This document shows, piece after piece, positions 1,080 through 16,376 of a stretch of DNA of 23,070 nt. Where the stretch lies: positions 1-23,070 of IMG/VR virus record IMGVR_UViG_3300006752_000247; one strand, 5' to 3'. The DNA is from a virus. The notes beneath the pieces were generated by a model. The model did no database searches. It was given only the letters and a program-made list of their open reading frames with translations, and was not told the DNA's origin. How positions within the stretch are numbered: position 1 is the stretch's first letter; the number at the start of each line of letters is the position of its first letter. Both the position numbers and the translations under genes were made by a program.

Positions 1080-2312
1080 TTATATTGTCTCAATTGATCT
1101 CATAAAAGGACTTAGCTGATTGTCGTAATGTATTATCAAATCTAACTCTCCTATGTATGTACTAGTTTTTGCATCACCATATGCTTTTCCAGCAAATGTT
1201 GTTATAGCCGCGCTAGGAAACCATTCACTCTTTAGTAACGGTTTCGGTATTTTATTACTATTAATATACACTATTTTTGTGTCTTTGTCAACCATATTAT
1301 TAAGATTGTTTTGTTGAATGTATTCGTTAAACGGTTTTCCTTCTGTAGTGTTGTCTAATCTAAACATTACAGACATACGCTCACTAGGTATAATATTTTG
1401 GAAAGCCTTATTAAATTGTGTTAAATGATCGTAGCATGTATCTTCGTGTAATACAATAACTAACGGAAATCTATATAATTCTAATATTATTTCAGCAAGA
1501 TTGTTAACAGTGTATTCTCTATTGTTTACAAATATATTTGCTTGTTTTCTGTTTACTACTTTTTGTGCAAGAGGAGTTAATGATTTTAAACTTTGTTCTA
1601 ACTCTTCATGATCAAAGTGTTCTAATCCAAACTGATCTTTTTTGTCGTAATAGTTACATAGGTTATCTAGACTAGGTTCACCTATACTGCTAATAGCAAA
1701 TTTAAAACTTTTCTCATGTAAGTTTTTTAATTTAAACGAATATATCCCTGGCACATATTTGTCTTGATTGTTTTTCATTTCTAATAGTTTCTCATAATAT
1801 TCTAATAACTGTTCCTCAACTTCAAAGTTGTTATTTTCGTTAAATGTATTAATTATTTCGTAGCAAGTATTTTCACTAAATTTAAAGTAGTGTATCTTTT
1901 CTATTTTATCATAGTAGCCGTCACCTAAGAACCTATTCATTCTTTCAATAGCATTAATAAGTTTCTTTTGAAAAACAAACCTTACACCTATCCAAGGACC
2001 TTCTTCATCTGAAACTAAATGTTGTTCATTAAATACTTTTACCCAACGACTTCTATCTATTGAACGTAAAGGCATTCTTAAATTACTATAAGAATCTTCA
2101 ATGTTATATCCGTTGGCATCAAACTGATCTTTATATTGCAACAGTTTTTGTTTAGCAAGTTCTGCTTGCCTATCTGTATATGCTGTGCCTTTAAAAGTCT
2201 GACGGGCGAGGCTGGTAAGTAAGCTATAGTCGCTACGATCTATTTCAAACTTATCTGTTTCTCTTGACTGTATTCCGACAAGATGTTCTATGCAATCTTC
2301 TAATGTTTCCAT
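1080..2312 (-). CDS. Unknown 410-aa protein, co-transcribed with uvsW
   Basis: I do not recognise this 410-aa protein. It is soluble-looking, with no signal peptide, membrane segment, Walker motif or cysteine cluster. The middle (about 110-260) is rich in Asn, Glu, Lys and Tyr and probably helical; the C-terminal part (about 265-400) alternates hydrophobic strands (FPLVIVLHE, TKIVYINSN, LDLIIHYD), as in an alpha/beta fold. It starts at ATG 2312 and ends with TAA immediately before the uvsW ATG (0-nt gap), which points to a role with UvsW in recombination or replication; that is inference from position only. A near-consensus sigma70 promoter (2319-2347) lies directly upstream, and no ribosome-binding site is seen. 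Adjacency to uvsW could be a conserved marine T4-like arrangement, but I cannot verify this. Confidence 0.8.
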   Translation of the reverse strand: METLEDCIEHLVGIQSRETDKFEIDRSDYSLLTSLARQTFKGTAYTDRQAELAKQKLLQYKDQFDANGYNIEDSYSNLRMPLRSIDRSRWVKVFNEQHLVSDEEGPWIGVRFVFQKKLINAIERMNRFLGDGYYDKIEKIHYFKFSENTCYEIINTFNENNNFEVEEQLLEYYEKLLEMKNNQDKYVPGIYSFKLKNLHEKSFKFAISSIGEPSLDNLCNYYDKKDQFGLEHFDHEELEQSLKSLTPLAQKVVNRKQANIFVNNREYTVNNLAEIILELYRFPLVIVLHEDTCYDHLTQFNKAFQNIIPSERMSVMFRLDNTTEGKPFNEYIQQNNLNNMVDKDTKIVYINSNKIPKPLLKSEWFPSAAITTFAGKAYGDAKTSTYIGELDLIIHYDNQLSPFMRSIETI

Positions 2313-2318
2313 AGTGTT

Positions 2319-2347
2319 AGTATACGCTATTTTAACTTAGAAGTCAA
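2319..2347 (-). promoter_or_regulatory. Sigma70-type promoter for the 410-aa gene and uvsW
   Basis: On the minus strand a -35 TTGACT (2347-2342) and a -10 TATACT (2324-2319) are separated by exactly 17 nt. The -35 lies inside the 3' end of the preceding glycosyltransferase gene. Six bases (AACACT) separate the -10 from ATG 2312, so the expected transcription start falls on the A of the start codon. It would give the recombination pair a transcript independent of the glycan island. Confidence 0.7.
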
Positions 2348-3175
2348 GCGTTTAAGTGGTATGCCCTGTGATATTTCTTCTAAAGTAAATTCTGTCCAGG
2401 CGTAGTCATTAAGCCATTTAGTTCTGTCTGTATAAAGAGGATTCTCAATATTGCGAAAGTTTTGTTCAGCAACATCAAATGCTAAACTACTTGGTCCTGT
2501 AAATGCAGGTACACCATTAATAATACTGTGTATGCCTGGATTGCTTGACCAACTTATAGTAGCCCATATGTTATCAAACTTCATATCGAAGTCGTCATAT
2601 GAACCTAGTAGTTGTCGTGGTTCTTGTCTTATTACATCTTTGAAGTCTTTTTCGATTGCTTCAAGTCTGCATCTAGGGTGAGGTCTAAATATGATAGGAC
2701 GTTTCGTTTGAGCTCTTATGAAAGTTATTGTGTCATGTACCCATTGAGACATTGGAGGCATACCTGCCCATTGCAGACTTTTGTCGTGTTGCCCACAGAG
2801 TAAAATGTATTCGCCGTTATAGTTCCAGTCTTTTAACTTGATGTTAAGACTGTTAGCACGATTGCTATCTGTGCTACTAGGGCCAAAGTAAGCGTCCCTA
2901 TTAATGCCATTTAATCCAACCTTCCATGTTGTACCTCTACTTATGCCACCGACTTCTAAAACTATTATCGGTTTCGATTGTTGTACTGCTTGTTTCCAGA
3001 TATTTTCATTTGGAGCCATTCTACCACTCCAAAGAACGCTCCAAATAACGTCAACGTCACAACCACTAGTATTATACAAAACGTCATGCCCAGCAACCAC
3101 AAGGCTGTGAGCAAAGGCATCAAAAACTGATTTGCTATTTTGTGCGCCATATTGTGTCCATAAACTGAATCTCAT
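2327..3175 (-). CDS. Capsule-synthesis-like GT-B glycosyltransferase (paralog 1 of 4)
   Basis: A 282-aa protein resembling the capsule polysaccharide synthesis / KpsS-type GT-B group, which transfers activated sugars to glycan chains. The C-terminal half carries family landmarks: GEYILLCGQ (about 121-129), KRPIIFRPHPR, then WSSNPGIHSIINGVPAF near the presumed nucleotide-sugar site, then IENPLYTDR and a terminal FTLEEISQG. The same blocks recur in the genes ending at 4751, 6351 and 8561, so the four are paralogs. The N-terminus begins MRFSLWTQYG after ATG 3175, with AGGAAT (3190-3185) 9 nt upstream as a plausible ribosome-binding site. It is the last gene of the island in transcription order, and its neighbour at 3217 is divergent. 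Acceptor and sugar cannot be read from sequence. No signal peptide, so it should act in the host cytoplasm. Confidence 0.75.
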   Translation of the reverse strand: MRFSLWTQYGAQNSKSVFDAFAHSLVVAGHDVLYNTSGCDVDVIWSVLWSGRMAPNENIWKQAVQQSKPIIVLEVGGISRGTTWKVGLNGINRDAYFGPSSTDSNRANSLNIKLKDWNYNGEYILLCGQHDKSLQWAGMPPMSQWVHDTITFIRAQTKRPIIFRPHPRCRLEAIEKDFKDVIRQEPRQLLGSYDDFDMKFDNIWATISWSSNPGIHSIINGVPAFTGPSSLAFDVAEQNFRNIENPLYTDRTKWLNDYAWTEFTLEEISQGIPLKRLTSKLK

Positions 3176-3196
3176 AAGTTAAATATTCCTATAAGC

Positions 3197-3203
3197 TATT
3201 TAC
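3197..3203 (-). promoter_or_regulatory. Weak late-promoter-like GTAAATA in the divergent intergenic region
   Basis: The 41-nt space between the divergent genes starting at 3175 (minus) and 3217 (plus) holds GTAAATA on the minus strand, 21 nt before ATG 3175, one base off the NATAAATA element seen elsewhere. A plus-strand purine run (AGAGAGAG, 3205-3212) just before ATG 3217 can serve as its ribosome-binding site. I see no convincing -35/-10 pair for the plus-strand gene. Confidence 0.3.
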
Positions 3204-3216
3204 AAGAGAGAGTATA

Positions 3217-4065
3217 ATGTCAGACATAACTGTGGTTACAACGTTTCATCGTCCGGGTTTAAAATTATATGGACAGCGTATGATAGATTCATTTGCTGAA
3301 AATGTAAGTGATAAGATCAAACTGCTAGTATATGCAGAAGATTGTAATCCAATTAATCCTAAGCCAGAGCAAATTACAATACTAGATGCAACTAAAGAGT
3401 TGCCCAAACTTGTAAAATTTAAAGAGCGTTGGGGTAATGTAGACAAAGCAAATGGCATTCCTCCAGATGATATTAAAGCACGTAGACCAAGAGATTGGCA
3501 AAAGAAGTTTAAGTGGGACGCTATACGTTTTGCTAATAAAACTTATGCAGTGTTTGATGCGTGTGAACGTAGCAAAGGTTGGTGTGTATGGATGGACGCA
3601 GATACATTTATTCACAGTCCTTGGAAGCACAAAGACTTTGCTCGCTTACTGCCCAACAATGCGTACATTACATATGTAGGTAGAGGTAAAGGATCACAGA
3701 CGTGGCCAGAGTGTGGCTTCTATGGTATGAACTTAAATCATCCTGTGTGCCACGAGTTCCTTAAAGAGTTTGAACGTATGTACGAAGATGCCGATAATGG
3801 AATTTTTGAATTAGAAGAATGGCACGACAGTTATGTGTTTGGACACATACTAAAACATTATAAAGCATTTGATGCTAATGCATTTGACTATAGTGCTACT
3901 ATGTATATGCGTGAAGCACGTACAGGTGGAGGCGGACATCCATTAATTAATACTGAACTGGGTAGATGGATGGATCATATGAAAGGTGATCGTAAAACTG
4001 CTGGCAGGAGCAAACGTACAGATATAATGGTTAATAGGAAAGAGGACTACTGGACTAAATCGTAG
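3217..4065 (+). CDS. GT-A glycosyltransferase with DAD motif; only plus-strand gene
   Basis: A 282-aa glycosyltransferase of GT-A type, expected to use a nucleotide-sugar donor with a divalent metal held by the DxD motif. It opens with a strand-turn typical of the fold (MSDITVVTTFHRPG), has CVWMDADTF with D127-A-D129 as the metal-binding DxD, and WPECGFYGMN followed by EWHDSYVFG in the acceptor half. The block around WMDADT matches the minus-strand genes ending at 4047 (WIDADT) and 5662 (WLDADM), so these are relatives. It is the only gene of the window on the plus strand: divergent from the gene starting at 3175 and overlapping tail-to-tail by 19 nt with the gene ending at 4047. That orientation suggests an inversion or separate acquisition. 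Donor and acceptor unknown. Confidence 0.8.
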   Translation: MSDITVVTTFHRPGLKLYGQRMIDSFAENVSDKIKLLVYAEDCNPINPKPEQITILDATKELPKLVKFKERWGNVDKANGIPPDDIKARRPRDWQKKFKWDAIRFANKTYAVFDACERSKGWCVWMDADTFIHSPWKHKDFARLLPNNAYITYVGRGKGSQTWPECGFYGMNLNHPVCHEFLKEFERMYEDADNGIFELEEWHDSYVFGHILKHYKAFDANAFDYSATMYMREARTGGGGHPLINTELGRWMDHMKGDRKTAGRSKRTDIMVNRKEDYWTKS

Positions 4066-4067
4066 TC
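4045..4067. repeat. Inverted repeat carrying both convergent stop codons
   Basis: GACTAC (4045-4050) and GTAGTC (4062-4067) form a perfect 6-bp inverted repeat around an 11-nt spacer. The left arm contains the minus-strand stop (TAG, 4049-4047) and the right arm the plus-strand stop (TAG, 4063-4065). There is no flanking T-run, so it is not a classic intrinsic terminator. Confidence 0.5.
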
Positions 4068-4754
4068 AATACGTTCTTTTAATCCTGCTTTATTGTGTTC
4101 AATAAATGGTGCTAATGGACTTCTAGGCACAGGTGTTTTTACACGATCCCCGTATGTCATATTATACATTTTAAAGTTTCTACTGTGCATTGCTTGTACA
4201 GTTTTACCGTAAATTTCTCCATCATAAAATCTACGCATGCCTTCACGTTTGTCATTATAATAAATGTCTTTGTATGTATCACAAAACTCTTTATAGCCTT
4301 TGTGTCTTGTATTTAAAACAAAGAATCCTGTTTCACAACTATAATAGTCAACATCATTTTTGTTATGCCATACTTGTAAGTGCGAACTTAAAAACTTATC
4401 TTGTGTAATATTTCCAAACACTGCTAAGTCAAAAGGTTTCTTAATTATTGTATCTGCATCAATCCAAATAATTCTATCAGCATCTATATTATCCATAGCA
4501 TGTATAATACTAAAACCTTTTTTAGCAAATGTTTTTACTCTTTTATTTTTATGTCTTGCTTGAAATGATTCGTATTCATTGCCTAAGTCCCAGCCCATTT
4601 CAATAAACGTATCGTCATTTAATGAGAAGTTATCTTCATTATAAACGTGCAAGTTTATTAAGTGTGACCAATGTTTCTTAAACGTATTCAACATATTAGA
4701 ACCACAACGATCATAATATGATTGATCCATACTAGTTATACCTGCGTATTTCAT
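4047..4754 (-). CDS. GT-A glycosyltransferase with DAD motif
   Basis: A 235-aa GT-A-type glycosyltransferase. Residues 91-103 (DADRIIWIDADTI) contain the metal-binding D99-A-D101, preceded by a helix FAKKGFSIIHAMDN that matches FWGKSVAQIHAIKN in the gene ending at 5662; in both proteins the DxD falls at residues 99-101, good evidence for duplication. Downstream, SCETGFFVLN and YDGEIYG are typical of the donor/acceptor half. ATG at 4754 overlaps the stop of the upstream gene by 4 nt (ATGA), so translation is coupled. It converges on the plus-strand gene ending at 4065. No signal peptide or membrane segment: a cytoplasmic enzyme by inference. Sugar specificity unknown. Confidence 0.8.
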   Translation of the reverse strand: MKYAGITSMDQSYYDRCGSNMLNTFKKHWSHLINLHVYNEDNFSLNDDTFIEMGWDLGNEYESFQARHKNKRVKTFAKKGFSIIHAMDNIDADRIIWIDADTIIKKPFDLAVFGNITQDKFLSSHLQVWHNKNDVDYYSCETGFFVLNTRHKGYKEFCDTYKDIYYNDKREGMRRFYDGEIYGKTVQAMHSRNFKMYNMTYGDRVKTPVPRSPLAPFIEHNKAGLKERIDYDLVQ

Positions 4755-5665
4755 AGGTACTCCTTAATAATATTCCATGCAGTTCCTTTTTCTAAATCTG
4801 CAAAATTAAAATGACTCATTGCTAGTTTTTCAATCCACTGTTGTCTTTCAGGACGTATTGGATTTTCTAGTTGACTTAAATCTGTATTGCCTATATCATA
4901 TGCTTGACTAACTTTAGCATTAGGGTCTGTTATAAACACAGGAATACCCTCTATCGCCGCCGCTACGCCTGGACTACTGTTGTATGTAACTACTGCCCAG
5001 CATTTTCTAAAATCGTCTAATATAGACGGTGCTGTGCTTATCTTAACGCCCGGATAGTTCAAGGTCAAGTATTGTTTTGCTTTTTTATCTCCAGGGTGCG
5101 CTCTAACTATAATATCTCGATCAGTATGCTGTTGTATTTCTTTAATAGTTTTATTACACCAGTCCATTACGTCATAGCCGCCCATACTCCATCCACCGTT
5201 ACGTTGTAAACATAAAAGTATGTGCTTACCTTTATTGGTCCACGGTTGCAAATCAAAACCTAAGTTGCGTTTTAGTTTTTGCCAACGTTCAGGATCTACA
5301 TTATCTGTAAAGTAATTGCCTGTAGTTGGAAATACATCATCTAAACTAAAACGTAGATACTGTTTAGTATTTCCAGGGTCTCTATATAAAAATAAATTAC
5401 TATCAATAGCAAGTGTATGTTTGCCAATAAGTTTCTGTTGTTGTATTACTTGTCTACGAAACATTAAGTGCGGAGTGTTACCACTATTTGCATGTACCCA
5501 TCCTTGTATAACACCCAAGTCACTTGGTTCCCAATTAGCTGATTGAATTTCTAAACTTTCACCGTCAGTACCTACACCGTTATGAAAACTTGTTAGAACT
5601 TGTCTTTTTTCTAAGTTTTTATTATGTGCGGGAATACCTGCATAGTAAATTCTTACAGACTTCAT
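4751..5665 (-). CDS. Capsule-synthesis-like GT-B glycosyltransferase (paralog 2 of 4)
   Basis: A 304-aa protein of the same KpsS/capsule-synthesis-like GT-B group as the genes ending at 2327, 6351 and 8561. Shared blocks in order: RWQKLKRNLGF, KGKHILLCLQ, TDRDIIVRAHPG (RPHP-like site with Ala for Pro), YNSSPGVAAAIEGIPVF, LENPIRPERQQWIEKLA and a C-terminal FADLEKGTAW. The N-terminal half (about 1-140) is the more variable, presumably acceptor-binding, lobe. It starts at ATG 5665, overlapping the stop of the upstream GT-A gene by 4 nt, and its own stop overlaps the next start by 4 nt. This GT-A/GT-B pairing in coupled translation suggests partner enzymes. Acceptor unknown. Confidence 0.75.
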   Translation of the reverse strand: MKSVRIYYAGIPAHNKNLEKRQVLTSFHNGVGTDGESLEIQSANWEPSDLGVIQGWVHANSGNTPHLMFRRQVIQQQKLIGKHTLAIDSNLFLYRDPGNTKQYLRFSLDDVFPTTGNYFTDNVDPERWQKLKRNLGFDLQPWTNKGKHILLCLQRNGGWSMGGYDVMDWCNKTIKEIQQHTDRDIIVRAHPGDKKAKQYLTLNYPGVKISTAPSILDDFRKCWAVVTYNSSPGVAAAIEGIPVFITDPNAKVSQAYDIGNTDLSQLENPIRPERQQWIEKLAMSHFNFADLEKGTAWNIIKEYL

Positions 5666-6354
5666 GTTGATGCCAACGTATGTTTAAGTTTGTCTTTATT
5701 AGTTTTATTAATATGATGTTTGAGATATAAACTAAAGCGTGTATTTTGTAATGCATTTACATTTTCACATACGTCATCACATAAATTTAAGAAGCCTGCT
5801 TTTTCACCTTTAGCAAAGTTACCAAGTACTGTAGCATCATAAGGTTTATGTAAACTTTCTAGTTTACTTTGATCGTTCCAAAATGCCCAATACTTGTTTG
5901 ACCATAATGTTAATTTTTCGTATTCTTCGTTAAAAATTACAAGTCCTGATTCGTAACAGTCAGGATGTGAATTGTTACTTTGCATCATAGCAACTGGATT
6001 TATAAATGGAAAACTAAATGCTTCTTCGGGTATTTTGCGTGTTTGCTCCATGTCAGCATCTAGCCAAATTATTCTTTCGCCCATGTCTCTATTTTTTATA
6101 GCATGTATTTGTGCTACACTTTTGCCCCAGAACTTTCTTATTTTAGTATTAACATCAAACTCGCTATCAACATCTAATGCAGGTACATGCAACAGTCTTT
6201 TGTTGAAAGGTAATTCATTAAACCATTCAACTTCACCTTCGTGTTGGTCAATATATATTTCTACTTTGCCAGGCAAGTCCCATGTACTAATACAATGCTT
6301 GCCAACACTTTTCCAATAGTTTTTTGATATACTTGTAACAAATTTTAATTTCAT
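5662..6354 (-). CDS. GT-A glycosyltransferase with DAD motif
   Basis: A 230-aa GT-A-type glycosyltransferase, sister of the gene ending at 4047. The metal-binding motif is D99-A-D101 in RIIWLDADME; the preceding FWGKSVAQIHAIKN helix and the following ESGLVIFNEEYE strand-turn (compare ETGFFVLN) are shared. The start at ATG 6354 overlaps the upstream stop by 4 nt, and the stop at 5662-5664 overlaps the ATG of the next gene (ATGA). The C-terminus is Lys/His/Asn-rich (LYLKHHINKTNKDK), different from its sister, so acceptors may differ. It acts presumably in the cytoplasm with its coupled GT-B neighbours. Confidence 0.78.
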   Translation of the reverse strand: MKLKFVTSISKNYWKSVGKHCISTWDLPGKVEIYIDQHEGEVEWFNELPFNKRLLHVPALDVDSEFDVNTKIRKFWGKSVAQIHAIKNRDMGERIIWLDADMEQTRKIPEEAFSFPFINPVAMMQSNNSHPDCYESGLVIFNEEYEKLTLWSNKYWAFWNDQSKLESLHKPYDATVLGNFAKGEKAGFLNLCDDVCENVNALQNTRFSLYLKHHINKTNKDKLKHTLAST

Positions 6355-7127
6355 ACTAAGCCCTTTATTATTCTATGTGCTGTACCGTTTTGTAATTCTT
6401 CATTATGGAATTGTCCGTATGCTAAATGACATGCCCATTTATATATTTTATGCGAGTCTTGTTGTGTTGGATTTTCAATGTGACTAATATCCTTATCGCA
6501 TACTGGATCAGCGGCTGTAGGCGCTGTAGTAAACGCTGAGACGCCATATAACACACTTTCTACTGCCGCTATGCTTTGATATGTAACCATTGCATGACAG
6601 TTATCTAAGTCATCATATATAGTTTTGTTTATGCGATTTTGACGTGGTGCTTTGTCTCTAATTATAATAGTTCTATCTGTATGCTTTTCTATTTCGTTAA
6701 CAGTATCTTTGACCCATTGATCTCTATCAATACCATAAAACTTACAAGGCTTTTCGCTAGGCGTGACAAGTAATATATGTGCGCCACCCTTCTTAGGTTT
6801 GTGTATTGCTTGTTGTAGTCGGTTCCATCTGTCGTTTGGTCTGTCTATTATTTCGTTGTGTTGCACATCGTTCTTTACTATACGGTGCCATTGTTTCCAA
6901 CCGTTTGGATTTATTGATGACTTGTAGTTTCCTACATAACCACTATCCATGTAGTAAAAGTCTCTTTTGTTTTGCCAGCATTCGTGTATAAGTTTTCGTT
7001 TACCCATGCTACGTATTACAATAGGAACATTGTCCGGAAAGTCACTGTAGTCATATATAGGTAAGTTTGCACTTTTAGCAAACATGTTTATATATTGATC
7101 TGTTTTATTTTTACTTAAACATATCAT
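6351..7127 (-). CDS. Capsule-synthesis-like GT-B protein with altered RPHP site (paralog 3 of 4)
   Basis: About 258 aa if started at ATG 7127 (17-nt overlap with the upstream gene). ATG 7151 is an alternative (266 aa), and the frame extends to a TTG at 7178 that I consider unlikely because of a 68-nt overlap. Family blocks: RWNRLQQAIHKPKKGGAHILL, TDRTIIIRDKAP, TYQSIAAVESVLYGVSAF, HIENPTQQD and FHNEELQNGTAHRIIKG. The RPHP-type site of its paralogs is replaced by RDKAP, losing the histidine, and the conserved SS before the second motif is QS, so catalysis may be altered or lost. It is sandwiched between two GT-A genes and coupled to the next by ATGA at 6351-6354. Probably a diverged glycosyltransferase or a non-catalytic partner. 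Confidence 0.7.
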   Translation of the reverse strand: MICLSKNKTDQYINMFAKSANLPIYDYSDFPDNVPIVIRSMGKRKLIHECWQNKRDFYYMDSGYVGNYKSSINPNGWKQWHRIVKNDVQHNEIIDRPNDRWNRLQQAIHKPKKGGAHILLVTPSEKPCKFYGIDRDQWVKDTVNEIEKHTDRTIIIRDKAPRQNRINKTIYDDLDNCHAMVTYQSIAAVESVLYGVSAFTTAPTAADPVCDKDISHIENPTQQDSHKIYKWACHLAYGQFHNEELQNGTAHRIIKGLV

Positions 7128-7782
7128 AAAGTTCTTGTTTCCATAACTCATTAAATTCGCAGTCTCTGTAGTTTTCAAACCACGGTCCGCCTTCAGTATA
7201 ATGTATTAGTTTTGGAGTTTCAATATCATCATACACACCTACTAAGTAGTTCCATGTATGATCTAGTTCACCAATTTCTTTATCTTCTAACCAACTAAAC
7301 CTATGAAAGTATGCGCCATTTAATTCTAAACTGTTAACTTGATCTTGGTCAACAACTCTATTACTAGGATGTCCACAGTTCCATAACACAACACTTGACC
7401 AGTTCTTGCGTGGATAGATAGTTTGCTTTTGTCCATCCATTTTAAAACCTTCTTTAGGTGTGTAATCATGTTGCACACACATAACAGCATACTTGTCGTC
7501 TGCTTGTGCAAATAGTTCAGCAATGTCTGTTGTAAGGATCATATCACAATCCATAAACAATGCCCAGCCTCTAAAGTTAGTAAGCTCTGGTATTAAGAAA
7601 CGTGTAAATGTAAATTCTGTTGATGCAAGTTTATCTTCAGGTCGACTGTACCAACCTGCTTGTCGTAATTCTTTTTGTACTAATGGAATAACTTCTGCAT
7701 CGGGTTGATGCTTTAGTATGCTATGCTTACACACTTGGTAAGCCATATCTTCTCTTGGGTCGTAGCCGATGAATACTTTCAT
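7111..7782 (-). CDS. GT8-like GT-A glycosyltransferase (DCD motif)
   Basis: A 223-aa GT-A-type glycosyltransferase that looks closer to GT8-like enzymes than to the other three GT-A proteins here. It opens with MKVFIGYDPREDMAYQVCKHSI, has TEFTFTRFLIPEL before the metal site, and ALFMDCDMI with D78-C-D80 as the DxD. WSSVVLWNCGH and LIHYTEGGPWF (with a His that could complete metal binding, as in GT8 HxxGxxKPW-type ends) follow. ATG 7782 overlaps the stop of the upstream fusion gene by one base (TAATG). It is expected to be a retaining, metal-dependent transferase if the GT8 link is right; donor unknown. Confidence 0.78.
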   Translation of the reverse strand: MKVFIGYDPREDMAYQVCKHSILKHQPDAEVIPLVQKELRQAGWYSRPEDKLASTEFTFTRFLIPELTNFRGWALFMDCDMILTTDIAELFAQADDKYAVMCVQHDYTPKEGFKMDGQKQTIYPRKNWSSVVLWNCGHPSNRVVDQDQVNSLELNGAYFHRFSWLEDKEIGELDHTWNYLVGVYDDIETPKLIHYTEGGPWFENYRDCEFNELWKQELYDMFK

Positions 7783-8552
7783 TAATCTCTTCTTTCTATA
7801 TCTTCTTCATAACAGTCGCCCCATTGTACTTCTAGTATATGAGTGTTCTCTGTTCCAGGATTGCTTGCTTTGTGCCAAACTTCCTTACCAATTTCAAATG
7901 TTCTACTTTTTTGTTCTAGTAGTATACTACTTTGTATACCATTCCACTCAGTGTCCATTTTAACTGTACCTTCTAGTACATTCCATTCTTCTGAACGCTT
8001 AAAGTGTTTTTGATCACTTAAACTTTTGCCCGGATATATTACAAGCTCTTTTACTTTGTAACCCTTTTCTGGTTTATGATCTAACACACGCCAGTAACCC
8101 CAGTCACGTTCTGTCTTTTGTGTTTTCCATTCATCAAGTATCCAACTACTTGAATTCATTTTGTTAGTGCCGCCTATACCAAAGGCAAAATCAACATACG
8201 GCATATCTCCGTAAATTTTGTATTCAGGGGTCGTGAAATTTGTCCTGTCGCCACCGTTAGCAAAGATAACTTTTGTTCCGCTACCGTGTGTACTAAGTGT
8301 ATGAAAGATAGCCTGACATGCGCTATCATCAGTATCATCAAAACCAATAACTTTGTCAACAATACTAAGTTCTCTAATGATAGCAACTCTATCATTAAAA
8401 GGCATAAAGTGTCTGCCTTTTTTACGTGCTAACCATTCGTCACTATTGACGCCAACTATAAGTTTACTTCCTAGTTTACGTGCTTCTTTAAAATATTCTA
8501 TGTGTCCTGAGTGTAGCGGATCAAAGCCGCCTGTTACTAATACTACATCCAT
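7782..8552 (-). CDS. Cytidylyltransferase-cupin (ManC-C/PMI-II-like) fusion
   Basis: A 256-aa two-domain protein. Residues 1-140 form a nucleotidyltransferase of the HldE/TagD-like class: GGFDPLHSGH (8-17) supplies the HxGH nucleotide site, NSDEWLARKKGR follows, and the domain closes with FGIGGTNKMNSSSWIL (124-139). Residues 151-256 form a cupin like the C-terminal part of type II mannose-6-phosphate isomerase/GMP: WGYWRVLDHKPEKGYKVKEL, SLSDQKHFKRSEEWNVLEGT (metal-ligand candidates H183, E189) and VWHKASNPG (H227). It would make or isomerise an activated sugar or polyol phosphate for the neighbouring transferases. Start ATG 8552 has no ribosome-binding site, but TATAAATA lies just upstream. 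The fusion is unusual; the individual domain calls are fairly secure, the substrate is not. Confidence 0.8.
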   Translation of the reverse strand: MDVVLVTGGFDPLHSGHIEYFKEARKLGSKLIVGVNSDEWLARKKGRHFMPFNDRVAIIRELSIVDKVIGFDDTDDSACQAIFHTLSTHGSGTKVIFANGGDRTNFTTPEYKIYGDMPYVDFAFGIGGTNKMNSSSWILDEWKTQKTERDWGYWRVLDHKPEKGYKVKELVIYPGKSLSDQKHFKRSEEWNVLEGTVKMDTEWNGIQSSILLEQKSRTFEIGKEVWHKASNPGTENTHILEVQWGDCYEEDIERRD

Positions 8553-8557
8553 ACAGA

Positions 8558-8565
8558 TATTTATA
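8558..8565 (-). promoter_or_regulatory. T4-type late promoter box TATAAATA
   Basis: Exact match to the T4 late consensus TATAAATA (8565-8558), overlapping the stop codon of the gene ending at 8561. Five bases separate it from ATG 8552, so a start about 6 nt downstream of the box would coincide with the start codon. Confidence 0.6.
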
Positions 8566-9547
8566 GCATGATTTGTGTATGCTTTTGCGTCTTGGCTTGT
8601 TCAAATAAAGACTGTAGTGTAGGCCACGGATCTCCTCTTTGTATCTCTTCACCTGTCCACTGTGCATAACTCATATCGTTTAACCATTGTTGCCTATCAA
8701 TAGGCTGCCAAGCAGTCTCAATATGATGTAAATTGCTTCTAGCAATAGGTGATGCTACTGAACTTGGGTCTAATGTATACGTTGGTTTGCCATTAAAAAT
8801 GCTCTCAACTGCCGTTAAACTACTAAAAACTATAACGCATTTCGAGTCTAAAATGTCCTTTTTAAGCCCACCGCTGGGTGCCATAGTAACACTTCCGTTG
8901 TATTCAAAGTTGCTACTCATTACCACATTTGTATATTTGCTTGCTAATTCTGAAAAATATCTTACTTGTGGTCGCATGTTATTTGGGTGCGGACGTATTA
9001 CAATTTTTCTATCTGTATTACTACGTATATCGTCTAGTGTATCTTTTAACCATAAGGTATATGCTTGCCAGGCTGTGTCAGTATTGTACTTTTTATACAA
9101 ATGATTTAAACTACTATCGCCTATTTTCTGTAAGCATAGCAATACATAATCGCCTGTATCGTCCCAAGGTTTTATTTGTAAATCAAAATCCTTTTGCATC
9201 ATTTCCCAACGGTCACTAGGACAGTTTTTTGGGTATGTGCCGGTATTATAAAAATAACTATTCCACGCAAGCCTGTGCCATTTAGTTAGTTTACTGTTGC
9301 CTTGTAAATCTCTAAAGATAGGACTTTCGTTTACAATAGAAGGTTTGTCACTACGTGCAATAAATTCAAATGCATCTCTAGTTACTTTATTTCCTTCATA
9401 GTGTTTTAAAATATTTGTTTGAAAATAAAAATCAGCATAGTTAGAATCTAAGCAACTTTTTAAATCAAAGGTATGTCCGTGTGCATATAACATACGCTTT
9501 AGTATTCCAGATGACTTACTTGCGCCTATTACTGCTACGCCCTTCAT
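8561..9547 (-). CDS. Capsule-synthesis-like GT-B glycosyltransferase (paralog 4 of 4)
   Basis: A 328-aa protein, the longest of the four paralogs. It opens with MKGVAVIGASKSSGILKRML, a strand-glycine-helix start of the GT-B N-lobe. Shared C-terminal blocks: DRWEMMQKDF, TGDYVLLCLQK, TDRKIVIRPHPNN (intact RPHP), VIVFSSLTAVESIFNGKPTY, HHIETAWQPIDRQQWLNDM and WTGEEIQRGDPW. An insertion around YNGSVTMAPSGG lengthens the region between RPHP and the SS motif compared with paralogs. ATG 9547 overlaps the upstream HAD gene stop by 4 nt (ATGA), while 8 nt separate its stop from the next start. Predicted cytoplasmic sugar transferase; donor and acceptor unknown. Confidence 0.75.
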   Translation of the reverse strand: MKGVAVIGASKSSGILKRMLYAHGHTFDLKSCLDSNYADFYFQTNILKHYEGNKVTRDAFEFIARSDKPSIVNESPIFRDLQGNSKLTKWHRLAWNSYFYNTGTYPKNCPSDRWEMMQKDFDLQIKPWDDTGDYVLLCLQKIGDSSLNHLYKKYNTDTAWQAYTLWLKDTLDDIRSNTDRKIVIRPHPNNMRPQVRYFSELASKYTNVVMSSNFEYNGSVTMAPSGGLKKDILDSKCVIVFSSLTAVESIFNGKPTYTLDPSSVASPIARSNLHHIETAWQPIDRQQWLNDMSYAQWTGEEIQRGDPWPTLQSLFEQAKTQKHTQIML

Positions 9548-10767
9548 TTCTTTTTCTCGTTAAACTTTGCCCATTTAATATTTGTAGTTGCATATTCTTT
9601 GCTGTGCATACGTTCAACAAACTTTAATAATAGTTCTTTGTTAGGCTTAGGTTTAAATAAATCGCAAATTGCGATTGCACTAGCCATTGCATTATATTGT
9701 ATCTTTGCAACGTGTTGAGGATGATCGTTTGGTCCTCTAATAGGTCCATCTTCGTCCCAATCAATTACTGGTCCAAGGTGATAGCAGTTGTGTTTTTCTA
9801 AACTTTTTGTAGCAAACGGTACAAGACGATCAATATAAGGAAGTGTCTTTCCTCCTATGTATATTGTATGCGGCGGTGCTTGATCATAAAATTTATAAAT
9901 GCTATTACCTTCACCTTGTAAATCTACTATAGTTGTGTTAGTGTCAACTGTTCTATCTATATATTTTTTAAAATGTTCGTTAGGTTCTAAATACATTTTC
10001 CTACTAGTAATAAGCATCTTACTTTTCTTACCAGTCATTGCTTCGTATAATGGTTGCCAATTACAACAGTCTCTATATGTAAAAGCAATATCTCTATCTG
10101 GTAGTTCTAGTGTAGCAAGTGCTAGTACAGGCAAGTTTAAGTTTGCTTGTTCGATCCAATACTTCTTTGCATCGCCTGTATGTGGGCATAGTAGCCTAGT
10201 TTTACGCATCCAACATGCTAGTTGTGGATCTACTTCATATGCCATTTGTTCAAGCTCTGTGAAGTGTGTAAGCGTGTCTAAGACGCCATTAACTCCATTT
10301 GCTTGTGCAGTTTTAACATCACTGTGATTGTTATCTCCATAGTGTGTATCTATGTTATACTTTTGTTTTACACTATCCCAAATGTATCCATGACGCTTGC
10401 CATATCTAGTAACAATAATATCTACATTTTTTGTTAGTCCGCAGTTGCGTAATATTTTCATAATTTCATCTGCACTAAGATACATGTCACTTAGTATTAA
10501 GTCACCGTCTTTGACTTTGTTTATATTTTCTACTATTGGAAATAAGTGTTCAAGTTCTACTTGTAATTCAACTTGTGGATCGTACTCGGGTAATAGTTTA
10601 TAGATGTCTTCGAAGTTACCTTCGTCTTTCTTAGTTGCTTTTTCAGCACGTATACGTTTTTTAACGTAGTTAGAATCGTTAATACGTCTAGCAGTTTCTT
10701 CATGTACTGTTTTAGGATAAAAGAATCTACGTGCAATTAGTGTATCAAATACGTCCCAGCTATTCAT
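9544..10767 (-). CDS. HAD-superfamily hydrolase-like protein of polysaccharide clusters
   Basis: A 407-aa protein if started at ATG 10767 (8-nt overlap with the upstream methyltransferase); a TTG two codons earlier is less likely. The N-terminus is a HAD phosphatase signature: SWDVFDTL with nucleophile candidate D5, ILSDMYLS (motif II) and HYGDNNHSDVKTA (motif IV acidic pair). The C-terminal half contains TTIVDLQGEGNSIYKFY, which resembles the VDLGW-type segment following the HAD domain in large bacterial lipopolysaccharide-cluster proteins. A role in dephosphorylating a sugar-phosphate intermediate is inferred from context. It is coupled downstream to the GT-B gene starting at 9547 by ATGA. 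Confidence 0.72.
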   Translation of the reverse strand: MNSWDVFDTLIARRFFYPKTVHEETARRINDSNYVKKRIRAEKATKKDEGNFEDIYKLLPEYDPQVELQVELEHLFPIVENINKVKDGDLILSDMYLSADEIMKILRNCGLTKNVDIIVTRYGKRHGYIWDSVKQKYNIDTHYGDNNHSDVKTAQANGVNGVLDTLTHFTELEQMAYEVDPQLACWMRKTRLLCPHTGDAKKYWIEQANLNLPVLALATLELPDRDIAFTYRDCCNWQPLYEAMTGKKSKMLITSRKMYLEPNEHFKKYIDRTVDTNTTIVDLQGEGNSIYKFYDQAPPHTIYIGGKTLPYIDRLVPFATKSLEKHNCYHLGPVIDWDEDGPIRGPNDHPQHVAKIQYNAMASAIAICDLFKPKPNKELLLKFVERMHSKEYATTNIKWAKFNEKKK

Positions 10768-11413
10768 GCTCAAATTCTATATCCCACTTGTTGATTCTAT
10801 GTACTTTGTATCCGTGTGGTGATAAGAAATTGGTTAACTTTTCAATCATGCCTTTTCTATTACCATGCTCAATAGTCATAAACTTTATTGTAATTTTATC
10901 AAAGTCTATACCTTGCAGGGCTTCTAGTTCGGCACCTTCTGTATCCAAACTCATGTAGTCAATTGTACACGGCACTTTATAATTCTCTTGTAATATTCTA
11001 GTAACAGTTTTACTTGTTACTGTTGTAGTTTCTGTTTTATCTTTAAAATGTGTTTTAAAGTATTTTTTATTTCTAGCATCTAAATCTGCATTTGTAATTC
11101 TAGATAGCAAGTCGCCTCGAATATCTTTATGTTCGCTTAAAGGAATTTCAAAAGTAACTGTACCGTCAGTATTAAAAACAGCACAATGAACTACTGTACT
11201 ATGCTGTCTGTTGTTTTGCAGTTGTGGTATTAGATGCGGATTTGCTTCTATACAAATACCTTTCCAGCCAAAGGAATATTCTAATGTAGCAGTATTACTT
11301 GTAAATACTCCATCATTAGCACCAATATCTAAATAGAATCCGTCACGTTTGCCACGTGATATATTTTCAATATAATACTTGTCTTGTTCTATTTGACTGT
11401 AGTATTGTGTCAT
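10760..11413 (-). CDS. FkbM-family SAM-dependent methyltransferase
   Basis: A 217-aa methyltransferase of the FkbM type, which O-methylates small molecules and glycans. Features: the usual YYSQIEQDKYYIENI lead-in, SAM motif I LDIGANDG (28-35), an acidic residue E56 after the second strand (GICIEANPH) for ribose binding, and IDYMSLDTEGAELEALQG, the typical FkbM post-motif block. The start ATG 11413 overlaps the uvsY stop by 4 nt (ATGA), so the island is fused transcriptionally and translationally to the recombination operon. It probably methylates a sugar or glycan end made by the downstream glycosyltransferases; this is inference from neighbours. Confidence 0.88.
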   Translation of the reverse strand: MTQYYSQIEQDKYYIENISRGKRDGFYLDIGANDGVFTSNTATLEYSFGWKGICIEANPHLIPQLQNNRQHSTVVHCAVFNTDGTVTFEIPLSEHKDIRGDLLSRITNADLDARNKKYFKTHFKDKTETTTVTSKTVTRILQENYKVPCTIDYMSLDTEGAELEALQGIDFDKITIKFMTIEHGNRKGMIEKLTNFLSPHGYKVHRINKWDIEFEHE

Positions 11414-11865
11414 AGCGTGGCATCTTCCATACCCGCTACTCTAAGTTTAACTACGTTTGTTATTTGCCATTGCTTTTGATCAAGTCCTTTTAAGACACCT
11501 AACCACTTGTTACGCATTAGTGCAAACTCGTTAATAATTTTTTCGTAATCAACAACGTCTGCCTCGCCGTCAACGTATTTTTCTACGTCACGACTAGACA
11601 GAGCTCGTTGATAGTTTTCTAAGTATTTTTTAAAGTATGAACTACGCAACCTGCGTAGCTCAATATTTAGATAGTTTAGGATTGCTTCAATCTCTTGTAA
11701 TTGATTGAATCTGTGTTCTACTATGCCTGGCATTGCCGCAGATGCTTTTTCTACACTACCAACTAATTTAACTTCTTTCTTTGCGTCAATTAGTTCAGTT
11801 TCATAAAATGTAACTGCATTAGGTATCTTGTTAATGTCTCTAGATACTTCGCTATACCAACCCAT
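11410..11865 (-). CDS. uvsY: UvsY recombination mediator
   Basis: A 151-aa homolog of T4 UvsY (137 aa), which displaces gp32 from ssDNA and loads UvsX. Recognisable features are a helical, charged middle (EIEAILNYLNIELRRLR, SYFKKYLENYQRAL) and the C-terminal block typical of marine T4-like UvsY: EKYVDGEADVV, NEFALMRNKWLGVLKGLD and KLRVAGMEDATL at the end. It follows uvsX with one 76-aa gene between, the same module as in T4-like phages, and its stop overlaps the methyltransferase start (ATGA, 11413-11410). ATG 11865 lies 3 nt after the upstream stop. Confidence 0.88.
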   Translation of the reverse strand: MGWYSEVSRDINKIPNAVTFYETELIDAKKEVKLVGSVEKASAAMPGIVEHRFNQLQEIEAILNYLNIELRRLRSSYFKKYLENYQRALSSRDVEKYVDGEADVVDYEKIINEFALMRNKWLGVLKGLDQKQWQITNVVKLRVAGMEDATL

Positions 11866-11868
11866 AAT

Positions 11869-12099
11869 TTAATCCCAATCTATTTCTTCGTCAAGAACAT
11901 CTTCTTCGTCGATGTCTAGATAATAGTTTATTGCATTATCTAATGCACTATCACTTCCTAGTGCGTTAGTAAACACATCGTCACCTGTACCCATATCGGC
12001 CATCAAGTCTACAAAGCGTTCAGCGGCAATCTCAATATGTTTTTTATCGAGATATTCCTTAAACATATTCCATGTATCTACGATTTGTTCTTCTTCCAT
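11869..12099 (-). CDS. Small acidic protein between uvsX and uvsY
   Basis: An unrecognised 76-aa, strongly acidic protein (ends DEEDVLDEEIDWD). The N-terminal half could be an amphipathic helix pair (VDTWNMFKEYLDKKHIEIAAERFVDLMADMG). A good Shine-Dalgarno AGGAG is built from the last codons and stop of uvsX just upstream of ATG 12099, and only 3 nt separate the genes, so it is a real coupled gene. Its position between recombinase and mediator suggests a link to presynaptic filament function or simply a conserved passenger; acidic character could also mean a DNA mimic. No function assigned. Confidence 0.75.
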   Translation of the reverse strand: MEEEQIVDTWNMFKEYLDKKHIEIAAERFVDLMADMGTGDDVFTNALGSDSALDNAINYYLDIDEEDVLDEEIDWD

Positions 12100-12102
12100 A
12101 CT

Positions 12103-13200
12103 CTACTCCTCGATTGTTTGTATGTCGTCTAATTCTACTTCGTCATCGATAATAGTTTCGTCGTCCGAGGTATTTACCAAAGTCGCTTCTTTTATTAGAT
12201 AATCTGACATAACAGTATCGAGGTTTTCGCCGATCCATTTTTTACGATATTCTAAGATTTCTTCGCCAGTGCTGGAAACATACTTTAGTCTGTTACCTTG
12301 TTTTTCAATGACGCCTTTTGCTTCAAATAACTCCAATAGTCCGCTATATGGATTCATGCCTGTTTCATAAGGAATTTTAACTTGCACTGCCTCGAAAGGT
12401 TTTGCATATCTAGTTTTCATTACTTTACAGCCTGCACGTATACCCATAACTTGACTGATCTTGTTACCGTCTTCATCTTCTTTTAGTTTTAGTTTTTTCA
12501 TTGCTACAACAATTGAAGATGCATAGATAAAGCCTTGTCCACCTGATATCTTATCATCTGGATCAAACATATCTTGTGATGCATATGTATGGTTAGTACA
12601 CACTAAGCCTACGTTATGTGAACCAATCATGTTAACAGTATTACGTACAAGTGATGTTAGTGCTTTAGGCTTACGACCCATATCACCTTTCATATCACCC
12701 TTGTTAAACTGATCAACATCTGTTGGTGTTAATAGCATACCTAGTGAGTCGATAACAAACAATACCTTAGGACGTTCTTCTTCGTCCATTGCTTTATAGT
12801 CTGCCATAAATGTTGATACTGTTTTAGCAACATCATCAATCATTGACATATTAAGTTTTAGTAGTTTGTCATCTGCTGTGTCTACATCTAATGCTTGTAG
12901 CCACGCTTCGTCAAGTGCGTTCTCTGAATCAATTAAGACTACAAAGATGCCTTGTTCTTGTGCCGCTTTTACAATGTTACCTGCACAGATATATGATTTA
13001 CCTGCACCTGATTCACCTGCAAAAACAGATACCTTACCTAGTGGAACACCTTTGTGGAAGTCTCCTGAGATAAGATAGTTGAGTGCATAATTTCCTGTAC
13101 TAATCCAATCAGTCGGGTCATTGAACCCTGCACTCATTCCTGAAATGGATTTAGTTAGTTGTGTCCTAAACTTAGTAGGATCAAACGCTTTATTCGCCAT
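12103..13200 (-). CDS. uvsX: UvsX RecA-like recombinase
   Basis: A 365-aa RecA-family strand-exchange protein (T4 UvsX is about 390 aa). The ATPase core shows Walker A GESGAGKS (62-69), the catalytic-glutamate region DSENALDEAW (91-100), Walker B VLFVIDSLGML (146-156) and a DNA-binding loop region GQGFIYASS. It ends in an acidic tail (DDETIIDDEVELDDIQTIEE) as is common in RecA proteins. Start ATG 13200 has a strong Shine-Dalgarno AGGAGA 5 nt upstream. It follows gp32 across a 74-nt spacer holding a hairpin and precedes the 76-aa gene and uvsY. Confidence 0.95.
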   Translation of the reverse strand: MANKAFDPTKFRTQLTKSISGMSAGFNDPTDWISTGNYALNYLISGDFHKGVPLGKVSVFAGESGAGKSYICAGNIVKAAQEQGIFVVLIDSENALDEAWLQALDVDTADDKLLKLNMSMIDDVAKTVSTFMADYKAMDEEERPKVLFVIDSLGMLLTPTDVDQFNKGDMKGDMGRKPKALTSLVRNTVNMIGSHNVGLVCTNHTYASQDMFDPDDKISGGQGFIYASSIVVAMKKLKLKEDEDGNKISQVMGIRAGCKVMKTRYAKPFEAVQVKIPYETGMNPYSGLLELFEAKGVIEKQGNRLKYVSSTGEEILEYRKKWIGENLDTVMSDYLIKEATLVNTSDDETIIDDEVELDDIQTIEE

Positions 13201-13231
13201 GGTATCTCCTGTTTTAAAAAGCCGTTAATGT

Positions 13232-13262: not shown

Positions 13263-13274
13263 GTTATATTATTA

Positions 13275-16371: not shown

Positions 16372-16376
16372 AAATG

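Follow-up and report, generated by a model that had tools for sequence, protein, structure and literature searches.

The interval between uvsY and uvsW in an uncultivated T4-related jumbo phage and its relatives is a hotspot of glycan genes which, in the intervals listed, consists of two parts, a conserved core on the uvsW side and a variable uvsY side. What is new here is the presence, before the first gene of the core, of sequence motifs resembling T4-type late promoters, as before tail-tube genes. With modest confidence, we interpret the island as a late pathway whose product is a variable glycan carried by a virion protein.

The uvsY-uvsW interval

The window (the whole stretch of 23,070 nucleotides analysed) is a fragment of such a phage, with a terminase 53% identical to that of PA5oct. 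A DNA-level search of named phages gave nothing beyond a match of 3%, to XaC1, and PHROGs support the identities of UvsY, UvsX, gp32, UvsW and TerL. The island spans positions 2327-11413 (Table 1). All eleven ORFs that a sequence-only reading had placed between uvsY and the pair formed by the 410-aa ORF and uvsW were found; ten lie on the minus strand, GTA1 being the sole plus-strand gene. The overlaps said to join most of the genes are present at most junctions: 4 bases at 4751, 5662, 6351, 9544 and 11410, 1 base at 7782, 14 bases at 10760 and roughly 41 bases at the GTB3-GT8 junction (GTB3 starting with ATG at 7151 or TTG at 7178). The exceptions are an 8-base gap (8553-8560), a divergent 41-base gap (3176-3216) and the 19-base overlap of the convergent genes GTA1 and GTA2 (4047-4065).

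Table 1. Positions of the genes and motifs in the window.
Feature	Position	Strand	Remarks
uvsW, cut by contig end	3..1079	-	right border; phrog_16 1.5e-44
410-aa ORF	1080..2312	-	next to uvsW
GTB1, core GT-B, predicted KpsC/WbbB-like fold	2327..3175	-	282 aa; RXHP, QXXXS not QXXXD
GTTAAATA, late-promoter-like motif	3178..3185	+	31 bases ahead of GTA1
TGTAAATA, divergent late-promoter-like motif	3197..3204	-	ahead of GTB1
GTA1, core GT-A	3217..4065	+	282 aa; model pLDDT 90
GTA2, accessory GT-A	4047..4754	-	235 aa; clusters with GTA1
GTB2, core GT-B	4751..5665	-	304 aa; RXHP, QXXXG
GTA3, rare accessory GT-A	5662..6354	-	230 aa; BLASTP to GTA2 8e-9
GTB3, core GT-B half	6351..7151	-	without RXHP or alignable QXXXD
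GT8-family glycosyltransferase, core	7111..7782	-	223 aa; Pfam PF01501 7.4e-7
CTcup, cytidylyltransferase-cupin fusion, first core gene	7782..8552	-	Pfam; cytidylyltransferase structures
CTcup divergent segment, residues 46-134	8151..8415	-	47% identical to closest relatives listed
TATAAATA, putative late-promoter motif	8558..8565	-	5 bases ahead of CTcup ATG
GTB4, accessory GT-B	8561..9547	-	328 aa; QKIGD 140-144, RXHP 185-188
HAD phosphatase, Bcs3 CrpP type, rare accessory	9544..10773	-	profile match 5e-9
FkbM-type methyltransferase, rare accessory	10760..11413	-	Pfam PF05050 1.2e-17; NCBIfam
uvsY	11410..11865	-	left border of hotspot; phrog_231 2.6e-16

The relatives are the matches listed for queries taken from the window, and their genes were named by best BLAST hits at E 1e-3. 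The loci listed include 34 distinct complete intervals of 6.8-16.2 kb. Another set comprises 66 uvsW-anchored loci, kept from 80 fetched after removal of 14 with less than 7 kb upstream; it was not de-duplicated, its presence counts are free of bias from the CTcup query, and its 10-kb flanks often stop within the island. The core has the nearly fixed order CTcup-GT8/GTB3-GTB2-GTA1-GTB1, makes up about half of the window's island and is composed of CTcup, GT8, KpsC-like GT-B proteins and one GT-A protein. GTB1, GTA1 and GTB2 are carried by 65 of the 66 uvsW-anchored loci listed, GT8 by 63 and CTcup by 61, the five without CTcup all ending at GT8. CTcup is found in 33 of the 34 distinct intervals listed, a frequency biased by the fact that some loci were fetched with CTcup itself as query. 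The 410-aa ORF, for which the PDB yielded a single, unconvincing match (E 0.0017), lies beside uvsW in all 66 loci listed, and still adjoins it in locus L301, where the glycosyltransferase genes are gone. No match to GTB1, GTA1, GTB2 or GT8 was obtained in a 275-kb relative, and the glycan therefore seems dispensable.

Concerning the accessory genes, HAD and GTA3 were each detected in one and FkbM in two of the 34 intervals listed. The eleven genes are thus not fixed in order in all relatives, and the variable glycan island proposed from the sequence is borne out, with the reservation that its core is nearly fixed. GTA2 has a best-hit relative in 11 of the 66 uvsW loci listed; in the window's island, GTA2 and GTA3 are insertions inside the core. 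Gene exchange was counted on interval pairs (496 pairs, 31 dropped beforehand for an empty uvsY side). Among the 65 pairs with UvsX at least 90% identical, 43 have no uvsY-side gene in common at 60% identity and 27 have no homologous uvsY-side gene in common at all. In loci L186 and L190, the first uvsY-side genes belong to one family (59% identical) and the remaining ones are unrelated.

Enzymes of the island

CTcup, proposed earlier as a cytidylyltransferase-cupin fusion, passes the profiles of the mannose-6-phosphate isomerase-type cupins and of the HIGH nucleotidyltransferases (PF01050, 63.7 bits, and PF01467, 56.1 bits; E 2.3e-17 and 5.6e-15, respectively), and reaches no NCBIfam equivalog cut-off. 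The nucleotidyltransferase occupies approximately residues 1-140 and the cupin approximately residues 145-254. The divergent segment of the former sits within DNA that is about 95% identical. The description of the island as an almost complete pathway of sugar activation, transfer and methylation was overstated, because CTcup is the sole sugar-activating enzyme recognised in it, and initiating and export proteins were not recognised there.

Structure prediction, suggested as a check, was run for GTB1 and GTA1, and the models agree with the GT-B and GT-A assignments, respectively. The GTB1 model (pLDDT 92) resembles KpsC (GT107; Z 13.8, rmsd 4.0, 239 aligned), WbbB (GT99; Z 12.2) and KrkA (GT140; Z 10.9, tied with the next row at 10.1), at 10-14% sequence identity; T4 DNA glucosyltransferases are absent among the 50 entries listed for this model. 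The GTB1 family is linked to GTB2 (hhalign 2e-39) and GTB3 to the GTB2 family (hhalign 9e-23). GTB4 is assigned by its motifs and by matches to surface-carbohydrate families that lie far under the cut-offs (TIGR04396, 4.3e-6). None of the four GT-B proteins exceeds a Pfam cut-off, GTB1 and GTA1 gave no identification by Pfam, PHROGs or NCBIfam, and the profile comparison of GTB1, GTA1 and GTB2 with PDB sequences was equally negative.

The RXHP motif is found in 91 of 91 GTB1, 108 of 108 GTB2, 46 of 49 GTB4 and none of 79 GTB3 sequences, which suggests CMP-sugars as putative donors; the CMP-binding motif (K/R)XHP is also found in sialyltransferases. The motif QXXXD, with its nucleophilic Asp, is described as defining the retaining beta-Kdo transferases (PMC12887879). 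Its last position is Ser in 89 of 91 GTB1 and Gly in 102 of 108 GTB2 sequences, so that these two core proteins, unlike KpsC, WbbB and KrkA, lack the nucleophile. The Asp is present in all 46 GTB4 sequences bearing RXHP, which leaves GTB4 as the only candidate member of GT99, GT107 or GT140.

The four GT-A proteins named in the sequence-only reading are recovered by Pfam for GT8, by the model for GTA1, by clustering with GTA1 for GTA2 and by similarity to GTA2 for GTA3; in Pfam, GTA1, GTA2 and GTA3 are all without a match over cut-off. The tree built for GTA1 is a quick one. In the relatives GT8 is frequently fused to GTB3 (60 fused against 112 separate GT8 ORFs, counted without de-duplication of the loci), and probably through these fusions GT8 was placed in the GT-B cluster in the gene clustering. 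Pfam and NCBIfam agree on the FkbM methyltransferase. The HAD-type hydrolase has no HAD domain according to Pfam and is identified by its profile match to Bcs3, the capsule polymerase of H. influenzae b. Its N-terminal part resembles the CrpP phosphatase domain, with the motif blocks FDTLI and HYGDN common to both; the match stops approximately where CriT begins and gives no support for a ribosyltransferase in the C-terminal region. Inversion of GTA1 by site-specific recombination was considered and rejected, no repeat flanking 3176-4065 among the 25 longest of the 85 inverted-repeat pairs of positions 1-14000. The longest pair (34 nt, 76%) falls inside the coding sequences of GTA1 and GTA2.

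Late-promoter-like motifs

The TATAAATA-like element before the first gene of the core appears to match a late promoter of the T4 type, for which the consensus TATAAAT is given (PMC3037559). Upstream of CTcup, NATAAATA was detected in 77 of 121 distinct upstreams (5.7 expected) and for 54 of 86 distinct proteins (mean 4.9 and maximum 14 in 200 mononucleotide shuffles), with a spacing of 5 or 8 bases to the ATG in 72 of 80 occurrences. The tail-tube-like gene o471 displays a similar spacing (5 bases before the start in 35 of 39 occurrences), and the motif also precedes o173 (60 of 60) and o212 (18 of 19 distinct proteins). There are no occurrences of NATAAATA upstream of UvsX, UvsY, UvsW, GT8, GTB2 or the 410-aa ORF, and the same-strand variable genes are at chance level (12 of 331, 17 expected). 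Several virion genes are poor in the motif, namely TerL (1 of 25 distinct proteins; TAAATA in 15 of 25), VSP (8 of 19), o224 (0 of 55), the head-closure gene o145 (1 of 64) and o122 (1 of 62 upstreams), perhaps because of a position inside operons.

Where GTA1 is inverted, a divergent pair of TAAATA is present both ways in 39 of 41 cases, mostly as GTTAAATA and TGTAAATA, one base away from NATAAATA. Where GTA1 is co-directional, TAAATA was found in 1 of 41 and 1 of 43, hence no second motif there. Within the window, TATAAATA with at most one mismatch is not enriched (72 matches, 73.6 expected), so that the case for a promoter rests on the positions of the motif across the relatives. From these positions, we infer that the core is expressed late.

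The product of the pathway

The sequence-only reading had left the product open between a virion glycan, the host surface and DNA. The late motifs of the core, the near absence of membrane proteins and the Asn-type thymidylate synthases now favour the virion, without settling the choice. The conserved core (CTcup, GT8 with GTB3, GTB2, GTA1 and GTB1), expressed late, would act as inner-glycan machinery, activating one sugar or sugar-alcohol phosphate to an NDP derivative and, in the cytosol, equipping a phage virion protein with a common inner oligosaccharide. The swappable uvsY-side cassette (here GTB4, HAD and FkbM, with GTA2 and GTA3 within the core) would add lineage-specific sugars and methyl groups, and its exchange would generate a serotype-like diversity of the virion surface. 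The cytosolic assembly, the virion protein as acceptor and the identities of the sugars are presumptive. VSP (14401-16386) was tried as a Ser/Thr-rich acceptor and rejected, its variable half not being Ser/Thr-rich. More tentatively, the glycan may be serotype-like, with a fixed inner part, exchanged outer sugars and a CTcup that swaps its substrate half, virion O-antigens then diversifying like bacterial surface antigens. Should the virion reading hold, the sugar coat of ocean phages would be diversified under strong exchange, and this would bear on adsorption, grazing and recognition.

By hydropathy, segments of transmembrane type occur in 2 of 1210 island proteins, compared with 89 of 854 downstream proteins. 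Flippases (PF01943) and initiating transferases (PF02397) were detected in none of eight long contigs, these two families matching 13 and 9 of 14 positive-control genomes. Thus, with these two families covered, the membrane exporter and initiating phosphoglycosyltransferase of a Wzx/Wzy- or ABC-dependent locus were not found. These counts weigh on the main rival explanation, rather unlikely in our view, that the enzymes remodel host surface polysaccharide, as a precursor of O-antigen or capsule on the inner side of the membrane, and block superinfection, for which expression of the core would also come late. Cytosolic LPS-core or O-antigen transferases are likewise devoid of membrane segments, so this rival keeps part of its probability. 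In its predicted fold, GTB1 is similar to the Kdo transferases of capsules and O-antigens, and CTcup has homologues in SAR86 and SAR11 bacteria. One of three bacterial contigs scanned, from SAR86, has Wzz, a glycosyltransferase, methyltransferases and a UDP-sugar dehydrogenase alongside CTcup; in the other two the neighbours are unrelated genes. Remodelling of the host surface is also the published reading for the cyanophage and jumbo-phage (PMC7824862) and pelagimyophage (PMC7029224) clusters.

Glycosylation of the phage DNA, as by the alpha- and beta-glucosyltransferases of T4, is improbable. The replication genes are T4-related, and phage glycosyltransferases putting diverse glycans on DNA were reportedly described by Pyle in 2024 (cited in PMC12619734). 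A dCMP hydroxymethylase has Asp where thymidylate synthase has Asn; the homologues (PF00303) detected in three of the eight long contigs are all of the Asn type (PFN). The other five contigs, possibly fragments, gave no match, and the window's own genome is not among the eight. Late expression would, moreover, follow most of replication. It is very improbable that host-derived glycan genes were merely collected at a recombination hotspot without steady function, despite the strong uvsY-side turnover, the relative without glycosyltransferase genes and the 'stuffer DNA' option named for cyanophage LPS genes (PMC3037559), given the conserved core order, the many residues invariant across 41 GTB1 and 41 GTA1 sequences and the conserved motifs in front.

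Comparison with known systems

Glycan gene clusters of marine phages have been known at least since 2010 (PMC3037559), and the authors cited here mostly favour the host surface as their target (PMC7824862, PMC7029224). The late-type motifs before the conserved core and the lack of a recognised export system are a reason to examine the virion. Like the island, the LPS clusters of the cyanophages P-SSM2 and S-SSM7 and the capsular clusters of jumbo phages come from marine T4-related phages, are polymorphic between relatives and contain many glycosyltransferases, HIGH nucleotidyltransferases, cupins, HAD phosphatases and methyltransferases (PMC3037559, PMC7824862). The cyanophage clusters are reported near hli03 or phoH, whereas the island lies between uvsY and uvsW, its nearly fixed core behind putative late-promoter motifs. 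The moraphage paper seems to concern another lineage. The host recognition cluster of the marine T4-like pelagimyophages is also hypervariable and carries glycosyltransferases, GT8 being the commonest family in these phages; unlike the island, it sits alongside tail fibres in the VrlC-gp14 interval. Late promoters were not detected there by its authors, who inferred a change of the host O-chain (PMC7029224).

The capsid glycan genes of the chlorovirus PBCV-1 also combine a conserved central glycan core with variants, made by virus-encoded enzymes (PMC7826918). The GTA1 model matches the PBCV-1 capsid glycosyltransferase (Z 13.9, 12% identity), a fold match tied with GT6 enzymes and others (Z 13-14) and, unlike the island, concerning a eukaryotic virus. 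In the Caulobacter phage CcrSC, a distant GTB1 homologue (21% identity) is found in a block directly after the tail genes.

Gene order and lineage

The window corresponds to the entire virus record (23,070 bases). On the minus strand, the genes from the high end are the end of a tail sheath gene, two tail-tube-like proteins, a 122-aa ORF, a head-closure protein, two small proteins (weak small-terminase match; virion structural), a 224-aa ORF, the terminase TerL, the virion structural protein VSP, gp32, UvsX, a 76-aa ORF, UvsY, the eleven island genes, a 410-aa ORF and UvsW, truncated at the contig end. The presence of eleven genes between uvsY and uvsW, reported in the sequence-only reading, is confirmed. 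The TerL proteins of PA5oct and its relatives are 53-54% identical to that of the window, that of Sinorhizobium phage Phosso is 49% identical, and the region is also present in records of up to 357,559 bases; by these sequence criteria, the window is a member of a T4-related jumbo lineage. No close cultured relative was found in the phage collection searched.

The second half of VSP is hypervariable, and the length of the whole protein ranges from 341 to 1055 aa (131 relatives, not de-duplicated). The 410-aa ORF adjoins uvsW in all 66 loci counted and diverges far faster (median 34%, against 70-98% for UvsW among the matches listed); family searches with this ORF gave no recognised family. A 335-kb contig in a Neomarinimicrobiota MAG (L337) holds the gp32-to-uvsW stretch and is therefore probably a misbinned jumbo phage.

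Coordinates of the features discussed (window positions unless another locus is named)
Feature	Coordinates	Description
uvsW	3-1079	truncated
410-aa ORF	1080-2312	
Island	2327-11413	eleven genes
GTA1	3217-4065 (3176-4065 with the divergent gap)	GT-A protein, inverted
CTcup	7782-8552	cytidylyltransferase-cupin fusion
CTcup mosaic segment	8151-8415	residues 46-134
uvsY	11410-11865	
VSP	14401-16386	between TerL and gp32
CTcup-only locus	L301:7485-10004	relative, 275-kb contig

A conserved core and a variable cassette

Three viral scans detected at least 236 loci, from which 34 complete uvsY-uvsW intervals (6,751-16,212 bases, median 8,927) were kept after removal of near-duplicates. GT8, the GT-B proteins GTB1 and GTB2, the GT-A protein GTA1 and the 410-aa ORF are present in all 34, and CTcup in 33. 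A separate GTB3 was found in 27 intervals, GTB4 in 13 and GTA2 in five. The eleven genes are not fixed as a set, since FkbM occurs in two intervals, and HAD and GTA3 in one each. A fourth scan, anchored on UvsW and not favouring glycan genes, gave at least 80 loci; counts were made in the 66 whose upstream sequence reached 7 kb or more. GTB1, GTA1 and GTB2 are each found in 65 of them, GT8 in 63 and CTcup in 61 (the five without CTcup stop at GT8), with FkbM in 10, HAD in seven and GTA3 in four. Because GTB3 is frequently fused to GT8 (60 fused GT8 ORFs and 112 single, loci not de-duplicated), it is counted with the core as well. The earlier description of a variable glycan island thus holds for the uvsY side, but not for the core, which is near-fixed.

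The variable genes form 160 clusters, of which 108 representatives were scanned against families. Among the best 25 of 54 families, the commonest are methyltransferases, sulfotransferases, GT25 and pyruvyl transferases, together with sugar dehydratases/epimerases, aminotransferases and UDP-sugar dehydrogenases. This repertoire is that of an O-antigen locus. An exception to the general organization is L301, with the order uvsY-CTcup-410-aa ORF-uvsW, where GTB1, GTA1, GTB2 and GT8 have no match anywhere in the 275-kb contig. CTcup is there the sole gene between uvsY and the 410-aa ORF, and the T4-type late-promoter-like motif NATAAATA is absent directly upstream.

Marine phage glycan clusters as such are not new, having been described in cyanophages, jumbo phages and pelagimyophages (PMC3037559, PMC7824862, PMC7029224). 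Those of jumbo phages and pelagimyophages were interpreted as host-surface modifiers (PMC7824862, PMC7029224); for those of cyanophages, PMC3037559 leaves the function undecided. No description of a uvsY-uvsW glycan locus was found in the open-access literature, judged from titles and the starts of abstracts. The nearest working analogy is the conserved glycan core with variants reported in chloroviruses (PMC7826918).

Exchange of genes and segments

A uvsY-side gene shared at 60% identity is lacking in 43 of the 65 interval pairs with UvsX at least 90% identical, and 27 of the 65 have no homologous uvsY-side gene in common. Common gene content is weakly correlated with UvsX identity (Spearman 0.25, 465 non-independent pairs). 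The relatives L186 and L190, identical in UvsX, are 95% identical in DNA over the stretch that starts immediately upstream of CTcup and extends across uvsW; between uvsY and CTcup they contain three and eight genes, respectively, and relatedness is limited to the first gene of each (59% identity).

The island-nearest relatives of the window (L224 and L229) match it at about 94-96% outside 265 bases in CTcup. This segment is 47% identical to theirs and up to 83% identical to other phages. In 102 CTcup pairs that match at 90% identity or more in the cupin half, it is below 60% in 26 and at least 80% in 38. As the segment is located in the nucleotidyltransferase part, downstream of the HXGH motif, its exchange could plausibly change the substrate. 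The loci L224 and L002 differ also in part of VSP.

Enzymes of the island

FkbM, GT8, the nucleotidyltransferase and the cupin are ordinary members of their Pfam families. GTB1 has no match in the family profile search or the PDB sequence search, and its sequence homologues are weak and from phages only. The structure predictions run for GTB1 and GTA1 agree with the glycosyltransferase folds first proposed. The GTB1 model (pLDDT 92) has KpsC as top match (Z 13.8, rmsd 4.0, 239 aligned), with KpsC, WbbB and KrkA ranked above the remaining rows; in a comparison with viral models, it was matched to Tetraselmis virus 1 proteins named 'capsule polysaccharide biosynthesis' and to one protein of CcrColossus. 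The GTA1 model (pLDDT 90) adopts a GT-A fold. Its leading match, to the PBCV-1 capsid glycosyltransferase (Z 13.9, rmsd 3.0, 180 aligned), scores level with those to GT6 and other enzymes, so that a function is not deducible from it.

Conserved elements of the retaining Kdo transferases are QXXXD and (K/R)XHP (2026 KrkA paper, PMC12887879). In the relatives, RXHP is retained in GTB1 (91/91) and GTB2 (108/108), and the nucleophile position (Asp of QXXXD) is occupied by Ser in 89 of 91 GTB1 and by Gly in 102 of 108 GTB2. GTB3 lacks RXHP in 79/79 sequences. RXHP is missing in three of 49 GTB4, and the 46 having it all possess the Asp. From these counts, it is a fair guess that three of the four GT-B proteins use CMP-sugar donors, and a Kdo-transferase-like mechanism would be assignable to GTB4 only.

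Residues 1-180 of the HAD protein match the phosphatase CrpP of Bcs3 (E 5e-9), which removes phosphate from freshly added ribofuranose-5-phosphate (PMC10299916). The phosphoribosyltransferase family PF00156 is matched by two of the 108 variable-cassette representatives (alignment A7). Together, these matches hint at PRPP-derived ribofuranose in some islands.

The nearest PDB sequences of CTcup are cytidylyltransferases for ethanolamine-phosphate and glycerol-3-phosphate, plus a putative one. Full-length homologues (41-53% identity, 80 loci kept) come from SAR86, SAR11 and other marine bacteria, and the top one (53%) is itself a phage contig. In a Rhodobacteraceae bin, three loci (L339, L340 and L344) carry a CTcup and, at a distance of about 6 kb, a gene resembling TerL (30-31% identical); they apparently represent a separate phage group that shares this fusion enzyme.

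Late-promoter-like motifs

The T4 late promoter consensus is TATAAAT, as quoted in PMC3037559; in pelagimyophages, late promoters could not be detected (PMC7029224). In the window, TATAAATA is located five bases upstream of the CTcup ATG. Of the 121 distinct CTcup upstreams, 77 have NATAAATA within the 60 bases preceding the gene (5.7 expected); with each distinct protein counted once, the figure is 54 of 86 (200 shuffles: mean 4.9, maximum 14). The motif also precedes the tail-tube-like genes o471 (35/37) and o212 (18/19) and the ORFs o173 (60/60) and o166 (38/46). It was never found upstream of UvsX, UvsY, UvsW, the 410-aa ORF, GT8 or GTB2 in relatives (0 each), and is at chance before same-strand uvsY-to-CTcup genes (12/331 vs 16.7 expected). 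Not all virion genes carry it (VSP 8/19, TerL 1/25, o224 0/55, o145 1/64, o122 1/62). Before CTcup, 72 of the 80 motif occurrences lie 5 or 8 bases from the ATG. As the spacing at o471 is similar (5 bases, 35 of 39 occurrences), the CTcup transcript may be leaderless.

GTA1 is found in both orientations. In a quick tree built from 78 distinct GTA1, 41 inverted and 37 non-inverted, at least 12 orientation changes are needed, against 21-31 when the labels were shuffled 30 times. Where GTA1 is inverted, as in the window, TAAATA occurs in 39 of 41 distinct upstreams of GTA1 and likewise in 39 of 41 of GTB1; with non-inverted GTA1, it is present in 1/41 and 1/43. The divergent pair reads mostly GTTAAATA and TGTAAATA, each one base off NATAAATA. 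An inverted GTA1 is thus nearly always accompanied by two divergent late-like motifs; no inversion mechanism was visible. Together with the motif before CTcup, we read this as putative late control of the core by more than one route.

Target of the glycan

The target, first left open between virion glycan, host polysaccharide and DNA sugar, is narrowed towards the virion, without being proven. By hydropathy, a membrane-like segment is present in two of 1210 island proteins of at least 100 aa (136 loci, not de-duplicated), and in 89 of 854 in a comparison set of genes downstream of uvsW. Peripheral LPS transferases of the host likewise have no membrane segments, and for this reason we retain, at a low probability, a modification of the host surface by these enzymes. 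The flippase family PF01943 and the initiating transferase PF02397 are absent from eight long contigs (115-357 kb; controls positive). Thymidylate synthases are of the Asn type in three of these contigs, with no match in the other five. Caulobacter phage CcrSC possesses a distant GTB1 homologue (21% identity) in a six-gene block immediately after the tail genes, which also holds a sialyltransferase-named gene and a methyltransferase. These data, with the near absence of membrane segments, are best explained by a cytosolic acceptor produced late, i.e. a virion protein, which would receive the glycan.
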